In this document: piece by piece, positions 1-5,997 of the stretch | How the letters are laid out: each line of letters opens with the position of its first letter | How positions within the stretch are numbered: the first letter of the stretch is position 1 | NCBI GenBank assembly: GCA_934511335.1 | Contig: CAKSWL010000058.1 | Span: 1 to 10,780 of the forward strand | DNA: 10,780 nucleotides | Source of the DNA: an uncultured Cloacibacillus sp. | Lineage (GTDB): Bacteria > Synergistota > Synergistia > Synergistales > Synergistaceae | Reading direction: 5' to 3' | Program-made: the position numbers and the translations under genes | The notes under the pieces: generated by a model | What the model was told of the DNA's origin: nothing | Database searches by the model: none | The model's input: only the letters and a program-made list of their open reading frames with translations

Positions 1-674
1 GGCATTAAGAACCCGGGCAGAGCATTAATGGTAGATTTAATTACATCTTTCCATGAGAATGGCTTATCCTCGCGGTAGGCGGAGCCGTGCGTCTTGGCAA
101 AACGGTATGCATAAACCATCATGGCAATGCACATCAGAATGCCCGGAATGACTCCTCCCATAAAGAGATCCTTCACGGAGACCGTGATCGGCGAACAGGT
201 CGCCAAAACCACCATGAAAAGGCTCGGAGGAATGATCGGCCCCAGAAGACCGCCGGCCGCAAGCATAACGGCAGTGAAATCAACGTCATATCCGCGCTTG
301 CGAATTTCCGGCAGTATTATTGAAGAAAGAGCCGCCGTGGATGCTGACCCGGAGCCGGTTATTGCCGCAAATCCGGCTCCGGCCAGAACAGTCATCAGGA
401 GAAGACTGCCAGTTACCCATCCGACAACCGCGCTTGTCCAGTCAATAATGCGCCGTGCGATTCCACCCCTGTCCATAAGCTGTCCCGCAAGGACAAAAAA
501 TGGAATAGCCATCAGGGGGAAGCTGTCGAGGCCCGCCATCATGCGTATCGCAATCGTATTCATCGGAACGTCCATGAGATACAAGAATGCGGCCGAAACA
601 GTTCCGATCGCAAAAACAATCGGCGTACCGCTGAAAATAGCCACTACGAAAAGAATAAATATTAGAGCTAACAT
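1..674 (-). CDS. dctM: TRAP transporter large permease (DctM), 3' end cut by window edge
   Basis: The DctM subunit is the large inner-membrane permease of tripartite TRAP transporters. It carries the Na+-coupled import of organic anions handed over by the periplasmic binding protein. The reading frame is open from the ATG at 674 to the left edge, giving 224 visible residues of an expected roughly 420-440. The protein starts MLALIFILFVVAIFSGTPIV and continues with family-typical stretches: PLMAIPFFVLAGQLMDRGG near residues 58-76, the Gly/Ser-rich ITGSGSASTAALSSIILPEI near 105-124, and GPIIPPSLFMVV near 145-156. The start overlaps the dctQ stop by one base (TAATG), with GGAGG at 685-689 ten bases upstream, so translation is probably coupled. 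The frame shows no break. The subunit identity is secure; the substrate cannot be told. Confidence 0.95.
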   Translation of the reverse strand, partial: MLALIFILFVVAIFSGTPIVFAIGTVSAAFLYLMDVPMNTIAIRMMAGLDSFPLMAIPFFVLAGQLMDRGGIARRIIDWTSAVVGWVTGSLLLMTVLAGAGFAAITGSGSASTAALSSIILPEIRKRGYDVDFTAVMLAAGGLLGPIIPPSLFMVVLATCSPITVSVKDLFMGGVIPGILMCIAMMVYAYRFAKTHGSAYREDKPFSWKDVIKSTINALPGFLM

Positions 675-1174
675 TACTCTTTCGCCTCCAAGCCTGTCGT
701 TGATTTCAGCTGTTTCGCGTTAAAAACAACATACTCAATCAGCCAATAGAACAGCCCGATAGGTATTATGAAATATACATAGCTCATCGGAATGTCCAGC
801 GCCGCGGATATCTGCATGCCGCCTACAGCGATCAGGTCGAAACTGCCGTATATGGCGACAACTAGGAATACAACGGCAAATATCCCGCAAAGCACAACAA
901 GAATCTTTTTACTTGTGTCTTTAAGCACGCCGGTAAGGACGTCAACGCCGACATGCAAGTTGCGCTGCATCGCGACTCCGGCTCCAAAGAAAACCATCCA
1001 TAACTGAGCGAATCTGGCGCTTTCTTCGGTCCATGAAATATCCATGTCGTTCGGCAGGTAACGGCCAAAAATCTGAAGAAGTATCGCTATTACCATGTAA
1101 GATAATGTGATTACTATTCCAGTCTTGGCAATCAGCCGACAAACTTTAAGAATTTTCTCAAGTGTATTTATCAT
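674..1174 (-). CDS. dctQ: TRAP transporter small permease (DctQ)
   Basis: DctQ is the small membrane subunit that pairs with DctM in TRAP transporters. The 166-residue length is normal for the family. Four hydrophobic segments are visible, near residues 17-39, 53-70, 90-113 and 130-152. The family-typical stretch DISWTEESARFAQLWMVF (about 44-61) lies between the first two, followed by the polar NLHVGVDVL segment. It starts nine bases after the dctP stop and ends overlapping the dctM start. No strong ribosome binding site precedes the ATG; the nearest purine run, GGGGAAA, lies inside the end of dctP and is a little far, so expression may depend on coupling to dctP. Confidence 0.93.
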   Translation of the reverse strand: MINTLEKILKVCRLIAKTGIVITLSYMVIAILLQIFGRYLPNDMDISWTEESARFAQLWMVFFGAGVAMQRNLHVGVDVLTGVLKDTSKKILVVLCGIFAVVFLVVAIYGSFDLIAVGGMQISAALDIPMSYVYFIIPIGLFYWLIEYVVFNAKQLKSTTGLEAKE

Positions 1175-1183
1175 CTTAGATGA

Positions 1184-2164
1184 TTATTTCCCCATATCGT
1201 GGATCTGCTTCAGAACGTTTTTAAGCTCGGGCTTCGTTATATACTTATCCGCAACTTTCTGGGCGACTTCTTTGAAGGGCGCCACATCAGGCTTTGTAAT
1301 GTTGACCCCGGCCTTTTTCATAGCAGCCAGGCTGGCTTCTTCGCTCTTTGCATAGGCCTCGCGCTCAACCTTCGCTGAGTAGGCGGCAGCTTCCTGAATA
1401 GCCTTCTGGACATCCTTCGGATAGGACTGGAACTTCTTCTCGGACATCATCATCGCGGTGACGCAGCGGTACCAGTTAACGAGAGCCCAGTTGGGAGCGG
1501 GACGGTAGAACTGCTGGTTGTAGCAGCTGGTGTTTGAAGCTTCGACTCCGTCAATGACTCCCTGTTCGAGAGCGCTGAACTGTTCGCTGAAAGCCATAGG
1601 AGTCGCTTTCGCACCGAATCCGTTAAAGGTATCGATATGAATCTTGGACTGCATGGTTCTGATTTTGGCACCTTTCAGATCCTTGATGCTATTGACGGGC
1701 TTTTTAGAGGCGATGTGACGAGCTCCGGCATCGTAGATAGCCAGAAGGCGAATGCCCTTCTTTGCGCAGGCGTCTACAAAGAATTTTCCGGGCGCGCCGT
1801 CAGAAGCTTTGTAAAAATGCTCATCGCTGGTGAATAGGAAGGGAAGGTCGTAGACGATGAATTCCGGGACGAAATTCGTTACCACAGTGGTAGCTGAGGT
1901 CGCAACGTCAACATTGCCGAGGAAGAGGCCTTCTGTCATCTCCTTTTCGCTTCCAAGCTGGCAGCTCGGGAAGACCTTAACCTCAAATTTGCCGTTTGTC
2001 ATTTCTTTCAGTTTTTTACCGAAAGCTTCGAGTCCAAGCTGGTACGGCTCCTTGTTAGTTGCGCTGTGTCCAGCCTTTAAAACTGTGGCGCCTGCGGCGA
2101 AAGCAGAAGCAGCAAAGGCAAATGACAGCACAAACGTCAAAAAGAGCACAAAAGATTTTTTCAT
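1184..2164 (-). CDS. dctP: TRAP transporter periplasmic substrate-binding protein (DctP)
   Basis: DctP is the soluble receptor of a TRAP transporter: it binds a small organic anion in the periplasm and delivers it to DctQM. The 326 residues begin with a signal peptide (basic MKK, a hydrophobic core, cleavage probably after the AFA at 22-24). The core has family features: GSEKEMTEGL near 71-80, the IYDAGARHIAS region with Arg149, the GAKIRT segment with Arg169 (the arginine that usually salt-bridges the ligand carboxylate), and PMAFSEQFSALEQGVIDGVE at about 189-208. A good ribosome binding site (GGGGGA, about 2173-2178) precedes the ATG. A 72-base gap separates it from the dehydrogenase gene upstream. 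Keeping the carboxylate-binding arginine suggests a carboxylic acid ligand, but other TRAP ligands are possible. Confidence 0.95.
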   Translation of the reverse strand: MKKSFVLFLTFVLSFAFAASAFAAGATVLKAGHSATNKEPYQLGLEAFGKKLKEMTNGKFEVKVFPSCQLGSEKEMTEGLFLGNVDVATSATTVVTNFVPEFIVYDLPFLFTSDEHFYKASDGAPGKFFVDACAKKGIRLLAIYDAGARHIASKKPVNSIKDLKGAKIRTMQSKIHIDTFNGFGAKATPMAFSEQFSALEQGVIDGVEASNTSCYNQQFYRPAPNWALVNWYRCVTAMMMSEKKFQSYPKDVQKAIQEAAAYSAKVEREAYAKSEEASLAAMKKAGVNITKPDVAPFKEVAQKVADKYITKPELKNVLKQIHDMGK

Positions 2165-2236: not shown

Positions 2237-3004
2237 CTAACGAGCAAGGTACCCTCCGTCTACAGCCATAGCGATGCCGGTGACATAAGAAGATTCATCT
2301 GAAGACAAGAAGAAGACCGCATTAGCCACTTCCTCAGGAGAGCCCATACGTCCGAGAGCAACGCCGCTGACATTACCGAGACGAGCGGCATCCGGATCCG
2401 GTGCGCGATCCCATGCCTGATGAACAAATTTCGTATCAATAGGACCCGGGCAGACGCAATTAACTCTGATATTATCCGGCGCCAGCAAGAGAGCCAGAGA
2501 TTTTGTCAGGGTAACTATGCCACCCTTCGTTGCAGAATATACGGGGCTCATGGGAGAACCGACTTTTCCGGCAATTGAGGAATCGAAAACAATCGCGCCG
2601 CCGCCTGTCTTTCTCATTTCCTCAACAGCGTACTTCGCGCTGAAAAAACAGCTTCTCAGGTTCACGGCAACAGCCTGATCCCATCCCTCTTCAGTAACTT
2701 CATCCAGACCTCCGGGCCCCGGCACGCCGGCATTGCTGAAGAGTATATCCAGCCTTCCGTAGCTTTCCACCGCTGTCTTTACCATGTTCTGCAAATCCGC
2801 GAGCTTAGACACATCTGTATTGACAAGAATGGCTTCTCCACCTGCTTCTTTGATCAGCCTTACCGTCTCTTCGCCTTTGCTGAGTGTCCTTACCGCCACT
2901 ACAACCTTTGCGCCATTCTTAGCATAAAGGCAGGCGGCAGCTTTTCCTATGCCAGCTCCTGCGCCTGAAACCACAGCGACTTTACCAGCTAACTTCAAGT
3001 TCAT
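2237..3004 (-). CDS. SDR-family NAD(P)-dependent oxidoreductase
   Basis: This is a classical short-chain dehydrogenase/reductase of 255 residues, which interconverts an alcohol and a ketone or aldehyde using NAD(P). Seen in the sequence: the nucleotide-binding loop GAGAGIG at 14-20, the TD pair at 63-64, NAG at 91-93, Asn115, a catalytic Ser at 142-143, and Tyr156 with Lys160 in YSATK. The PGPIDT motif sits at 187-191 and the C-terminal dinucleotide-fold end at VDGGYLAR. The start is supported by AAGGGGAAAG directly upstream. It lies between the selenoprotein and the TRAP genes on the same strand. By context I infer that it acts on the imported compound or on a product of the selenoprotein. 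Family members named 3-oxoacyl-ACP reductase or glucose dehydrogenase look alike, so no substrate is assigned. Confidence 0.95.
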   Translation of the reverse strand: MNLKLAGKVAVVSGAGAGIGKAAACLYAKNGAKVVVAVRTLSKGEETVRLIKEAGGEAILVNTDVSKLADLQNMVKTAVESYGRLDILFSNAGVPGPGGLDEVTEEGWDQAVAVNLRSCFFSAKYAVEEMRKTGGGAIVFDSSIAGKVGSPMSPVYSATKGGIVTLTKSLALLLAPDNIRVNCVCPGPIDTKFVHQAWDRAPDPDAARLGNVSGVALGRMGSPEEVANAVFFLSSDESSYVTGIAMAVDGGYLAR

Positions 3005-3190: not shown

Positions 3191-4909
3191 TTAATCTTTA
3201 ATTTCCTTCGTTATGGGCCAACCGAGGCCAAGGCTCACAGCCGACTTTCCGGCAGCTCCGCCGATTACTGCGATATCAAAATAGCCGAAGTCTCTTACCA
3301 TGGGAACCATCGTATCATCCGATGCATTGATCAGCCATCTGTATCCGGGAAGTACAATCTTGCTTTCAATGCGCGGGATAACCTGATGTTTGAACTGCCC
3401 CCACTTACGGCGGCACTTGGCGTAGAGATACTGCTTGACGTCGAACTTTGACCAGCCTGCGTTGGCAATCATTCTGGCGTGGTCAGGAGCAAGAAGCAAT
3501 GCCACCTTCATGCGCGGAGGTGTTACGTAGCCCAGCCATGAACGCGCGCCTAGCCAGCCCATTGAATCTATTGAGGAGGCGAAGGTACGGAGAAGATCTT
3601 CCGGCGTGTCGCTCTCCATATCCTCTATTTCCATGAGAGACTGGCATGGAATTGCCGTAACGCAATTCAAGCCCGGCTTGAATCCCTTTTCGACGCTGAA
3701 AGGTTCCCATGGGTTTTCAGCCTCATTTTCAGCTGCGCAGAAGCTGTATTTGATTGGAGAGCCGATCGTATCCATATCGCGTATGCGGGCATATGTAAAG
3801 CCGATATTCATCATGCAGAGGCGCACCGCTCTGCCGATTGCCGTATTTGCCGCCGAAGCTCTGCCGGGGCCAAAACAGCATGCCTCGCTGTTCATCCCTA
3901 TTTGCTTGGCAATAGGCCCGTTTACAAGCAGTATCGGGGCGTGAGCGCCGGTGGACTGAGCTAGGATGGTCAAAACAAACTCCTCTACATCCATCGCTTC
4001 AATTATAGCTATCAATATAGGCAGGTGTGCGGGCTCGCAGCCGGCCATAACGCAGTTGGCGGCAATTTTTTCTACTGTGGCCAACCCCATGCCTGGCTGC
4101 ATTTTAAGGATAACTTCATGACGGCTGCGTTTCGTGCCAGTCAGCATGCGGTTGACAGCTTCCTCAGTGGGCGGAACTATCGGGAATCCATCTCCCCAGC
4201 CGTGGTTAATGAAATAGCGGTTGAGGTTGTAGCTCCAATCGAAATAATCTTCTCCCCCAATGGTTATACGCTCCGGTTCGACTGAATGTTCCAGAGGAAC
4301 TTCTTTTACCGGCTTGTCTGGTGCAGCAGCCTCTCCGGCTTTTTTCTTCGGCGGGAAGAGAAGCTCGCCTTCATGAGTCAAACCGTAAACTACGGCGTCA
4401 TAGAGCGCCTCGCCAGTCTGAGCAACTTCTTCCTCCGGCATTTCGGTGAAGGGATGAGGCATTACTGCTCTGCGTGCTCTCAGCAATCCTCTGGTTTTGA
4501 ATTCCGATGCATTAATCGGCAAAAATCCTTTGGCTACAATTCCTACGGTGGGAATACCCATTTTTTCTAGGGAGCTTACGTCACGCGTAAGCCATGCTGT
4601 GCACGACCCTCAGTCTCCTGTGGTAGCGATGGCCGCTTGGCACTCCGCCGCAATTACTCTGTCGTATACATCATCACCATGAGGCCAGCCTTGGGTAAAT
4701 AATTCGGTCTCAACGTTATACTCTTTTTTCAAGCGAGCCGCTATTGTTTTTAATGCTATGTCGCCTTTTGCCTTGCCATTCCACCATAACGCTATCTTCT
4801 TTCCTTTAAGACTAGTCAAACTAGCCGCTGGTGTTATAGTCTTTGATTCAACTTTAGCTACAGGATTTACTATTGTTACTGAGACATTCTGAGCTTTTTC
4901 CTCTGACAT
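3191..4909 (-). CDS. UGSC-family selenoprotein with fused C-terminal domain (UGA = Sec at residue 100)
   Basis: This is read as one 572-residue protein in which the TGA at 4612-4610 codes selenocysteine. Residues 1-99 end in ATTGD, followed by Sec-Gly-Ser-Cys (100-103), then sixteen open codons, then a run beginning MGIPTVGIVAKGF (117 on). The frame is continuous and open to the stop at 3191. UGSC is a known Sec-x-x-Cys redox motif in bacterial (seleno)proteins; the flanking pattern (GD before it, LEKMGIPTVG after it) fits that family. A charged, Pro/Ala/Lys-rich linker at about 187-203 leads to a C-terminal domain starting with GWGDGFPIVPPT (237-248) and containing Cys286, Cys291, Cys344 and Cys345. 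I infer a redox or reductive enzyme; its reaction is unknown. AAGGAGG (4918-4924), eight bases before the ATG, fixes the start. The internal ATG at 4561 has no ribosome binding site, which argues against two genes. It is the first gene of the SDR-TRAP cluster. Confidence 0.9.
4570..4612 (-). promoter_or_regulatory. Bacterial SECIS element just downstream of the recoded UGA
   Basis: Bacterial selenocysteine insertion needs a stem-loop in the coding sequence right after the UGA, bound by SelB. Here the RNA after the UGA contains a perfect 7-bp stem GCUUACG (4592-4586) / CGUAAGC (4580-4574) closed by the loop CGUGA (4585-4581), which has the expected GU. The loop begins 24 bases after the UGA, within the range usual for such elements. 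GGG right after the UGA can also pair with the CCC at 4570-4572, giving a lower stem. This supports recoding rather than a nonsense mutation. Confidence 0.85.
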
Positions 4910-4917
4910 TCCTTGTA

Positions 4918-4924
4918 CCTCCTT
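4918..4924 (-). promoter_or_regulatory. Ribosome binding site of the selenoprotein gene
   Basis: AAGGAGG is a near-perfect Shine-Dalgarno sequence eight bases before the ATG at 4909. It decides the start of the long selenoprotein reading frame. Confidence 0.85.
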
Positions 4925-4942
4925 GAAGTATCAATAACACAT

Positions 4943-4980
4943 TTTGTAACAAGATCTATTATTTCTGTTACCAAATCTTG
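4943..4980 (-). promoter_or_regulatory. Leader hairpins upstream of the selenoprotein gene
   Basis: Two mutually exclusive pairings are visible in the predicted 5' leader. One pairs 4943-4951 with 4966-4975 (nine base pairs with one bulged base, loop of 14). The other pairs CAAGAT at 4950-4955 with ATCTTG at 4975-4980. They share bases at 4950-4951 and 4975, so they cannot form together. They end about 19 bases upstream of the ribosome binding site. A regulatory role is only a possibility. Confidence 0.3.
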
Positions 4981-4989
4981 AGCTTTCTC

Positions 4990-5049
4990 CTAGTCGCCCA
5001 CTACCTCCTTTCGAAGTCCTGCAGAGCTCAGCGTTTCATCCGCCATCAT
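4990..5049 (-). CDS. Possible 19-codon leader ORF, or remnant, upstream of the selenoprotein gene
   Basis: A short frame reads MMADETLSSAGLRKEVVGD and stops at a TAG (4992-4990). AAGGA (5054-5058) lies three bases before the first ATG and six before the second. After the TAG the same frame remains open and protein-like (EKAQDLVTEIIDLVTKCV and on) and overlaps the selenoprotein start in another frame. The EKAQ resembles the EKAQ at residues 4-7 of the selenoprotein, and the DNA around it resembles a second copy of that gene's start region. It may be a leader peptide, a decayed duplicate of the gene start, or chance. I have no function for it. Confidence 0.25.
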   Translation of the reverse strand: MMADETLSSAGLRKEVVGD

Positions 5050-5068
5050 GTATCCTTGAATTGACGTA

Positions 5069-5097
5069 AGTTTAAAACAAAATCTAGAAATTGTCAA
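5069..5097 (-). promoter_or_regulatory. Sigma-70-type promoter of the selenoprotein-SDR-TRAP operon
   Basis: On the minus strand TTGACA (5097-5092) is followed after exactly 17 bases by TAAACT (5074-5069). The -35 box is perfect and the -10 matches four of six consensus bases. Transcription would start near 5062, giving a leader of roughly 150 bases before the ATG at 4909. No other comparably good promoter is seen between here and the gene. Confidence 0.65.
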
Positions 5098-5104
5098 TTT
5101 ATAT

Positions 5105-5132
5105 GGACTTATGTCCCATAGGACTTATGTCC
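5105..5132. promoter_or_regulatory. Tandem palindromic operator (two GGACTTATGTCC copies)
   Basis: GGACTTATGTCC occurs at 5105-5116 and again, identical, at 5121-5132, separated by CATA. Each copy has inverted GGAC/GTCC arms. The array begins seven bases upstream of the -35 box of the operon promoter, centred roughly 48 and 64 bases before the predicted start. That is where a transcription activator would bind, although a repressor is not excluded. I cannot name the regulator. Confidence 0.6.
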
Positions 5133-5150
5133 TAATAGTAGTATTTTTGT

Positions 5151-5273
5151 ATGGCAGCGAAAAACTATAAAGATGGATATAGACATCACATTAAAGGAAA
5201 CAGCCCCGAATATCACGAAGCCGAGGCGGACAAGCCATGGCAATACGTCGCCAGCAGCTTTAGGACATCATAA
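5151..5273 (+). CDS. Small ORF of 40 codons, function and reality uncertain
   Basis: It begins MAAKNYKDGYRHHIKGNSPE and ends in DKPWQYVASSFRTS before TAA. The composition looks protein-like, with many charged and aromatic residues and no low-complexity runs. No Shine-Dalgarno sequence precedes the ATG, and the start is only 18 bases from the tandem operator, so a promoter would overlap it. I do not recognise the sequence. It could be a genuine small protein, a fragment of a decayed gene, or chance. Confidence 0.25.
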   Translation: MAAKNYKDGYRHHIKGNSPEYHEAEADKPWQYVASSFRTS

Positions 5274-5323
5274 TCATCAAACTATATGCTATGCGATATG
5301 CGGAGACGAAGATGAATATTTCC

Positions 5324-5370
5324 CACAATAGCGGGCAACCATACCTAAGGACAGCAAGCCCACTATTGTG
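5324..5370. repeat. Long imperfect hairpin, 13-bp arms
   Basis: The arms CACAATAGCGGGC (5324-5336) and GCCCACTATTGTG (5358-5370) pair with one mismatch around a 21-base loop. No T-run follows on either strand, so it is not an ordinary terminator. It could be a mini-element end, a protein-binding palindrome or part of a structured RNA. Confidence 0.5.
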
Positions 5371-5596
5371 CCAGTGTTATTCCAGGCTTCGACGGTTTTG
5401 ACTCTACAATCCGGTGATACAACGTCTCTGCAAAAAATCGAGACACAGCAGGCATCGTGGTTTCCTAGATTTTTTCCTTTATCGCCTACATTTACCCTGC
5501 TGTCTCTTGCCCGCTTGCCTAATGTACTTCAGTCATCAGGACGCTTTTCCTTGGCAGCGCTTCCCTGATGCCTCTGACGCAGCGCACGGATCTGTT

Positions 5597-5641
5597 ACTT
5601 TTTTCGGTTCCGTATCATCTTTTAGTCATCACCGAAAAAGT
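5597..5641. repeat. Inverted repeat with A/T tracts in the arms
   Basis: ACTTTTTTCGGT (5597-5608) pairs with ACCGAAAAAGT (5631-5641) with one bulged T and a 22-base loop. The T-tract lies inside the arm rather than after it, so a terminator is not the first reading. Its role is unknown. Confidence 0.45.
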
Positions 5642-5997
5642 TGATAAATCCGGTAATAGTCTGTAGACGATCGCGACAATGTAGGAAATCTGTAATTATC
5701 GGAAAAAACTAAGATAATTAATAAAGACAAAGACTGCGGAGAAACCCAAACTTAAGCGATAAAATAAACAGGAAGGCTTTCAAAAGGTAAACTTGGATAG
5801 GTCTGCATGCAGGGCATCCTAGGCAGAGAGGGCCCTGAATTTTACCTATCGCAATGCCTGTCGTCTGTTCGGCATTCTTTTATAACCTAGCCCCTCTCCA
5901 CTAAAATATATGCCATGTTCCGCGGCGTGTTTCGAAATGCGGGGAGCCCTGTGTCCCATTCTCAGACCGGCTTCGTCCGGCGGGGTATCTCCGCCTT

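Follow-up and report, generated by a model that had tools for sequence, protein, structure and literature searches.

Does an in-frame UGA divide a gene of an uncultured Cloacibacillus sp. into two truncated frames, or does it place selenocysteine (Sec) in a single protein, and what might such a protein do? The gene lies on the minus strand of a 10,780-nucleotide stretch of DNA (contig CAKSWL010000058.1; 'the window' hereafter). From the ATG at 4909 to the TAA at 3191, its frame has a sole interruption, the TGA at 4612-4610; with this codon read as Sec, the frame gives 572 residues, of which D-U-G-S-C are residues 99-103. A first-pass annotation had joined the frames 4909-4610 and 4561-3191 into one, and the sequence and its open reading frames (ORFs) bear this out, as the gap between them consists of the TGA and sixteen open codons. 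It had also described Gly-Ser-Cys directly after the TGA (codons GGG TCG TGC) and an internal ATG at 4561 without a ribosome-binding site; both descriptions are accurate, and no Shine–Dalgarno-like run occurs in the preceding ctccctagaaaaa. The nearest genome searched (G001) has CTT in place of that ATG and hence lacks the internal start; the AAGGAGG ahead of the upstream start is common to the window, G001 and a second relative (G034). The coordinates of all features are collected in Table 1.

Table 1 Features of the window, with positions counted from its first letter
Feature	Position	Strand	Basis
Predicted UGSC–Unknown_1 fusion selenoprotein gene	3191..4909	-	572 aa, Sec at residue 100; TAA stop 3193-3191
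Predicted Sec codon UGA, residue 100	4610..4612	-	TGA kept in L013 and L015; Cys in homologs
Ribosome-binding site AAGGAGG, 5' of the 4909 start	4918..4924	-	Sequence
SECIS-like hairpin, 7-bp stem, loop CGUGA, 24 nt from UGA to loop	4574..4592	-	Sequence, folding, bSECIS model
UGSC domain core, residues 38-178, predicted GrdB C-domain-like alpha/beta	4376..4798	-	AF2 model, PF24696, hhalign
C-terminal domain, residues 206-572, equated with 'Unknown_1' of the Global Ocean Sampling paper	3194..4294	-	Model pLDDT 92
SDR oxidoreductase	2237..3004	-	PF13561 7.7e-63; order same in G001
TRAP transporter substrate-binding protein DctP	1184..2164	-	PF03480 4.3e-74
TRAP transporter small permease DctQ	674..1174	-	PF04290 3.8e-27
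Probable TRAP large permease, partial, runs off the window	3..674	-	ORF; identity from position
Possible sigma-70-like promoter TTGACA-17-TAAACT	5069..5097	-	Consensus match only

Upstream of the gene, positions 4910-5997 form a stretch of about 1.1 kb with no minus-strand ORF of at least 80 aa, poorly conserved in G001 except towards the gene start. Promoter-like sites number six, equal to the shuffle mean of 6.0.

We found the gene in two of the 185 genomes of the phylum searched, G001 and G034, whose proteins are 96% and 88% identical to that of the window. Both carry the same TGA, which is thus conserved in three assemblies altogether. Ortholog comparison gives dN far below dS before as well as after the UGA, and residues 101-116 are the same in both orthologs save one K/R change and are still recognisable in Cys homologs. 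Window and G034 are identical over the 33 nt from Cys103 to Ser113, the whole hairpin included, with an overall agreement at third positions of 366/567; the match over codons 101-116 is equalled by 4.9% of comparison windows at third positions and by 14.0% at all positions. Against G001 the conservation of the same codons is ordinary, equalled by 61.5% and 44.6% of comparison windows, and the hairpin stem there has one change, from G-C to G-U.

These comparisons bear on the reading of the UGA as a true stop, whether by nonsense mutation, by sequencing error or as the boundary of two separate genes. Such a stop would suit the long ORF on each side, the second of which could start at the internal ATG. 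It is at odds with a UGA shared by three assemblies, with the conservation of the residues that follow it, with purifying selection on both sides and with an internal start that has no ribosome-binding site and is replaced in G001, and we consider it very improbable.

Homologs with Sec or Cys at the site had been called for as a check. Our search, with C written for U in the query, returned 432 matches, and among the best 120 all 38 homologs that cover the site have Cys at residue 100, while 29 of these 38 also keep the second motif Cys. The suspicion that ordinary annotation splits such genes is upheld: 66 of the best 120 homologs begin between residues 101 and 125, immediately after the UGA site, as expected if gene callers restart after UGA, and a further 16 start beyond residue 125. 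Ordinary annotation cuts this gene in two, and the same cut is indicated across the family.

The search for sel genes covered the two relatives. In G001, selA, selB, selD and tRNA-Sec (77.4 bits) all score over the cut-off, and selD itself has an in-frame TGA; in G034, an assembly 89% complete, selA, selB and selD were found and the best tRNA-Sec match, at 38.6 bits, is below the cut-off. Passages of a study of Cloacibacillus porcorum report a strain with every Sec insertion gene and an absolute need for selenium (PMC10838667). That the UGA is read as another amino acid, through a Trp-type code change or near-cognate readthrough, is hardly credible given that TGA ends three other ORFs of the window, that the covering homologs have Cys rather than Trp at the site and that the nearest genome has a complete sel machinery.

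The predicted SECIS element had been described as a perfect 7-bp stem with GU in its loop, 24 nt past the UGA, and this is what the sequence holds: GCUUACG pairs with CGUAAGC (4592-4586 and 4580-4574) around the loop CGUGA (4585-4581). A bSECIS model given in passages of PMC13188914 specifies a loop of 3-9 nt with G in the first two positions, a stem of 4-16 bp, a spacing of 16-37 nt and a minimum free energy of at most -7.5, and the hairpin agrees on all four counts (5 nt, 7 bp, 24 nt and -16.5 kcal/mol over a 47-nt stretch). Its folding energy is unexceptional, with z between -1.2 and -1.8 and 8 to 23 of 200 shuffles folding equally well. Under a strict definition (seven Watson–Crick pairs around a small loop that contains GU, at a spacing of 16-37), a hairpin follows 20 of the 4959 TGA triplets in the examined loci, true cases and duplicate loci counted, and appears 32 times when the downstream stretch is dinucleotide-shuffled 20,000 times. 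Under loose criteria, which allow G-U pairs and do not demand GU, hairpins are common: of 1543 TGAs, 109 have one with at least 7 bp and 498 one with at least 5 bp. At the UGA sites of GrdB, our positive control (loci L041-L060), the loose hairpin is present in 16/16 with the 5-bp minimum and in 11/16 with the 7-bp minimum. Because loose hairpins are common and the folding energy is unexceptional, the hairpin alone is modest evidence, compatible with Sec insertion and not proof of it. A haloarchaeal Cys member (L035:7280-7329) folds a similar hairpin at the place where the TGA members have their SECIS, and part of the SECIS-like hairpin may stem from coding constraint. What decides the matter is that UGA and frame are conserved, not the hairpin.

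Taken with its UGSC-family identity, the Cys homologs, the UGA kept in two further genomes and purifying selection on both sides of it, the selenoprotein reading put forward in the first pass stands: judged from its sequence, the gene at 3191-4909 very probably encodes one 572-residue UGSC-family selenoprotein, read through a single UGA. As such it is another member of a known family. It matches PF24696 over residues 13-178 (1.5e-31; 110.3 bits against a gathering score of 25) and misses the equivalog cut-off of NCBIfam NF041046 (94.9 against 125 bits), a 147-position model that spans the UGSC domain only. The C-terminal domain had no Pfam match of its own in the domain searches. We equate it with 'Unknown_1', matched by fusion name rather than by alignment, as passages of a 2008 Global Ocean Sampling study already report a UGSC/'Unknown_1' fusion (PMC2398784); as far as names show, the fusion type too is already known. 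What our analysis adds is a relationship to glycine reductase GrdB and the way family members vary between Sec, Cys and Met.

This pattern is visible on plasmids. There were 24 plasmid records with a match, and 13 loci were analysed, with 9 Cys, 2 TGA and 2 Met at the Sec site. The TGA members belong to Acidovorax sp. T1 (a fusion, 31% identity) and Paracoccus ferrooxidans (a stand-alone UGSC gene followed by an Unknown_1 gene); annotation cuts both short at the TGA, as stubs of 95 and 96 aa, and 19 nt from the TGA each has an 8-bp hairpin, which in Paracoccus includes one G-U pair. In Paracoccus ferrooxidans, selB lies 3.3 kb past the Unknown_1 gene, and the search of the Acidovorax sp. T1 plasmid, confined to that plasmid, gave no selB match. 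The Paracoccus genes (L079:5387-12134) fall inside 6.8 kb adjoining a transposase, a possible mobile set of selenoprotein plus factor. Distant relatives in Sporomusa and Vibrio have Met at the Sec site, the Sporomusa row being less sure as it aligned elsewhere with another query. The Met fusion homologs (L039:9025 and L080:6052; motif MGTS) both adjoin aconitase X and DUF126 genes. Passages of PMC5330540 mention UGSC-motif selenoproteins in genomes whose tRNA-Sec anticodon is CUA.

G001 also has a second UGSC–Unknown_1 gene (L013:16108-17790), a 63-64% identical paralog beyond the TRAP genes whose motif, CGSS, has Cys at the Sec position but no longer the second Cys; the site is encoded by TGT, the right hairpin arm is altered and the region folds differently. 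The metagenome proteins P0003-P0007 and P0009-P0012 likewise have Cys at the site and a motif without the second Cys.

For the structure we modelled the full-length protein with AlphaFold, Cys replacing Sec (pLDDT 90.5, pTM 0.91). The UGSC domain comprises five strand/helix units (38-43/49-64, 67-72/79-87, 92-98/101-116, 121-126/127-140 and 144-150/159-178) that we read as a parallel, Rossmann-like alpha/beta arrangement, and the Sec position falls between strand 3 and the helix after it in the model. A fold search listed many Rossmann-, flavodoxin- or receiver-like rows and, among those listed, no thioredoxin, although a thioredoxin-like fold may still apply.

Profile comparison links this domain to GrdB. 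Using hhalign, we compared a UGSC profile of 152 sequences (33 fusions and 119 stand-alone) with one of the GrdB family (n = 89) and obtained, in this single comparison, a probability of 95.2 and an E value of 2.7e-8, with residues 80-183 aligned to GrdB 330-430. The match persists with residues 96-106 masked (81.5), with residues 90-116 masked (73.5) and for the post-motif residues 107-185 alone (84.7), as well as for stand-alone rows only (94.5) or fusion rows only (92.3). GrdB rows read from DNA only (n = 16) give 94.5, with Sec on Sec, and database rows only (n = 73) give 94.3 in the same register. The Sec column of the 89 GrdB rows reads W in 64, C in 21 (in 16 of these, C stands for Sec), G in 3 and a gap in 1, W presumably being the database translation of TGA. 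None of thirty column shuffles exceeds 23.5, and the reversed profile gives 11.8; profiles of selA, selB, fumarase, GrdE, SDR, DctP, MurG-like and DHH proteins give at most 2.4, although with 1 to 13 sequences each, against 89 for GrdB, they are weaker tests. Earlier, smaller profiles gave 92.2; masking the motif all but abolished their match, which dropped to 6.1 when one shuffle scored 10.7, so the case for homology beyond the motif depends on the larger profiles. Residues 1-92 alone score 2.4 against GrdB, and PF07355 matched none of 54 UGSC family members at E ≤ 10, a model that covers little of the UGSC-like part because GrdB matches end at model position 347, the ORF stopping before the Sec codon. 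On these profile alignments, the UGSC domain is probably homologous to the C-terminal Sec domain of GrdB, a relationship we regard as real but distant. The link does not appear in the UGSC passages of the literature examined. The Unknown_1 domain scores 0.3 against GrdE, and the window genes tested include none recognisable as a GrdE- or GrdA-like partner.

The neighbouring genes would suit metabolism of a carboxylate. The SDR gene is likely in the same operon as the UGSC gene, and TRAP transporter genes follow. In G001 (L013), a 428-aa ORF comes after DctQ, its first 60 residues nearly the same as those of the window ORF 3..674, and the row continues with the Cys paralog, an ORF whose NifU-like match is just below the cut-off and an amidohydrolase. 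Twelve of the 13 plasmid loci have annotation (L075 has none), and the raw neighbour counts over these 12 are as follows: TRAP/TAXI or tripartite tricarboxylate transporter genes near six (L035, L036, L037, L076, L077 and L078), SDR near three (L076, L078 and L079), DUF6282 near three (L035, L074 and L077), thioredoxin reductase near two (L038 and L078) and aconitase X near both Met forms (L039 and L080). The two thioredoxin reductase genes lie near a UGSC/Unknown_1 pair (L038:5638-8812 and L078:3074-7554), with thioredoxin too in L038. TRAP and SDR genes also occur near UGSC genes in Halalkalicoccus. These neighbours are compatible with a carboxylate enzyme recharged by thioredoxin.

The alternative that fares best accepts the selenoprotein and takes the UGSC domain for a general thiol/selenol redox protein, such as a thioredoxin-like disulfide or peroxide reductase. 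It draws on the UxxC motif, on the thioredoxin reductase neighbours in two loci and on passages of two papers, PMC2398784 among them, that call UGSC thioredoxin-like or place it with thioredoxin-fold proteins. We judge it unlikely, as five alternating strand–helix units are predicted, the fold-search rows are often of Rossmann, flavodoxin or receiver type, the profile matches GrdB, and the Met variants and metabolic neighbours would suit an enzyme with a substrate better than a redox buffer.

The GrdB link and the adjoining TRAP and SDR genes instead suggest that Sec serves a GrdB-like reaction on a carboxylate taken up by the cell. SelB and tRNA-Sec very probably decode the UGA at 4612-4610 as Sec with help from the downstream hairpin, as the sequence, its conservation and the machinery of the relatives imply, and in the model Sec sits at the start of the helix after the third strand of a Rossmann-like fold that is probably homologous to the GrdB C-domain. 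The TRAP transporter would import the substrate and the C-terminal domain would hold it; by analogy, the Sec selenolate could then attack it and displace a leaving group, after which the thioredoxin system may regenerate Sec via Cys103 of the UxxC pair. The SDR might act before or after the UGSC protein. We regard GrdB-like chemistry as possible, if somewhat short of an even chance. More tentatively still, and again by analogy, UGSC–Unknown_1 might be a second, compact type of 'protein B' reductase that depends on Sec. Its GrdB-type Sec domain, with a substrate domain of its own in place of the GrdE pyruvoyl partner, would reductively cleave a carbon–heteroatom bond of the carboxylate after import, and thioredoxin would recharge it. 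If that were true, compact 'protein B' reductases with Sec, Cys or Met at the site would be spread over anaerobic bacteria of the gut, bacteria of the soil and haloarchaea.

Among known systems, the UGSC family as defined by PF24696 and NF041046 and in passages of PMC2398784 shares motif, domain and C-terminal fusion with the window protein, whereas the window gene has a Synergistota-type setting with TRAP and SDR genes and scores below the NF041046 cut-off. Thioredoxin-fold UxxC selenoproteins likewise carry the UxxC pair at a helix start, although the predicted fold of the window protein is Rossmann-like instead. The fluoroacetate reductase FarEB of Cloacibacillus porcorum MFA1, as described in passages of PMC10838667, probably comes from the same genus and includes a GrdB-like protein that depends on Sec and works on a small carboxylate taken up by the cell; FarB is reported there to be homologous to GrdB and to be paired with FarE, whereas the window protein has no PF07355 match. 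Compared with GrdB and PrdB of the glycine, sarcosine, betaine and proline reductases, the window protein has no detectable GrdB N-terminal half, reads GDUG where GrdB reads STUG, and joins its Sec domain to a domain without detectable relation to GrdB or GrdE. With their C-terminal alpha/beta domain it is predicted to share the fold, UxxC in register, the strand–helix pattern after that motif and a PHP segment (VMPHPF in the window protein, AIPHPL in GrdB).
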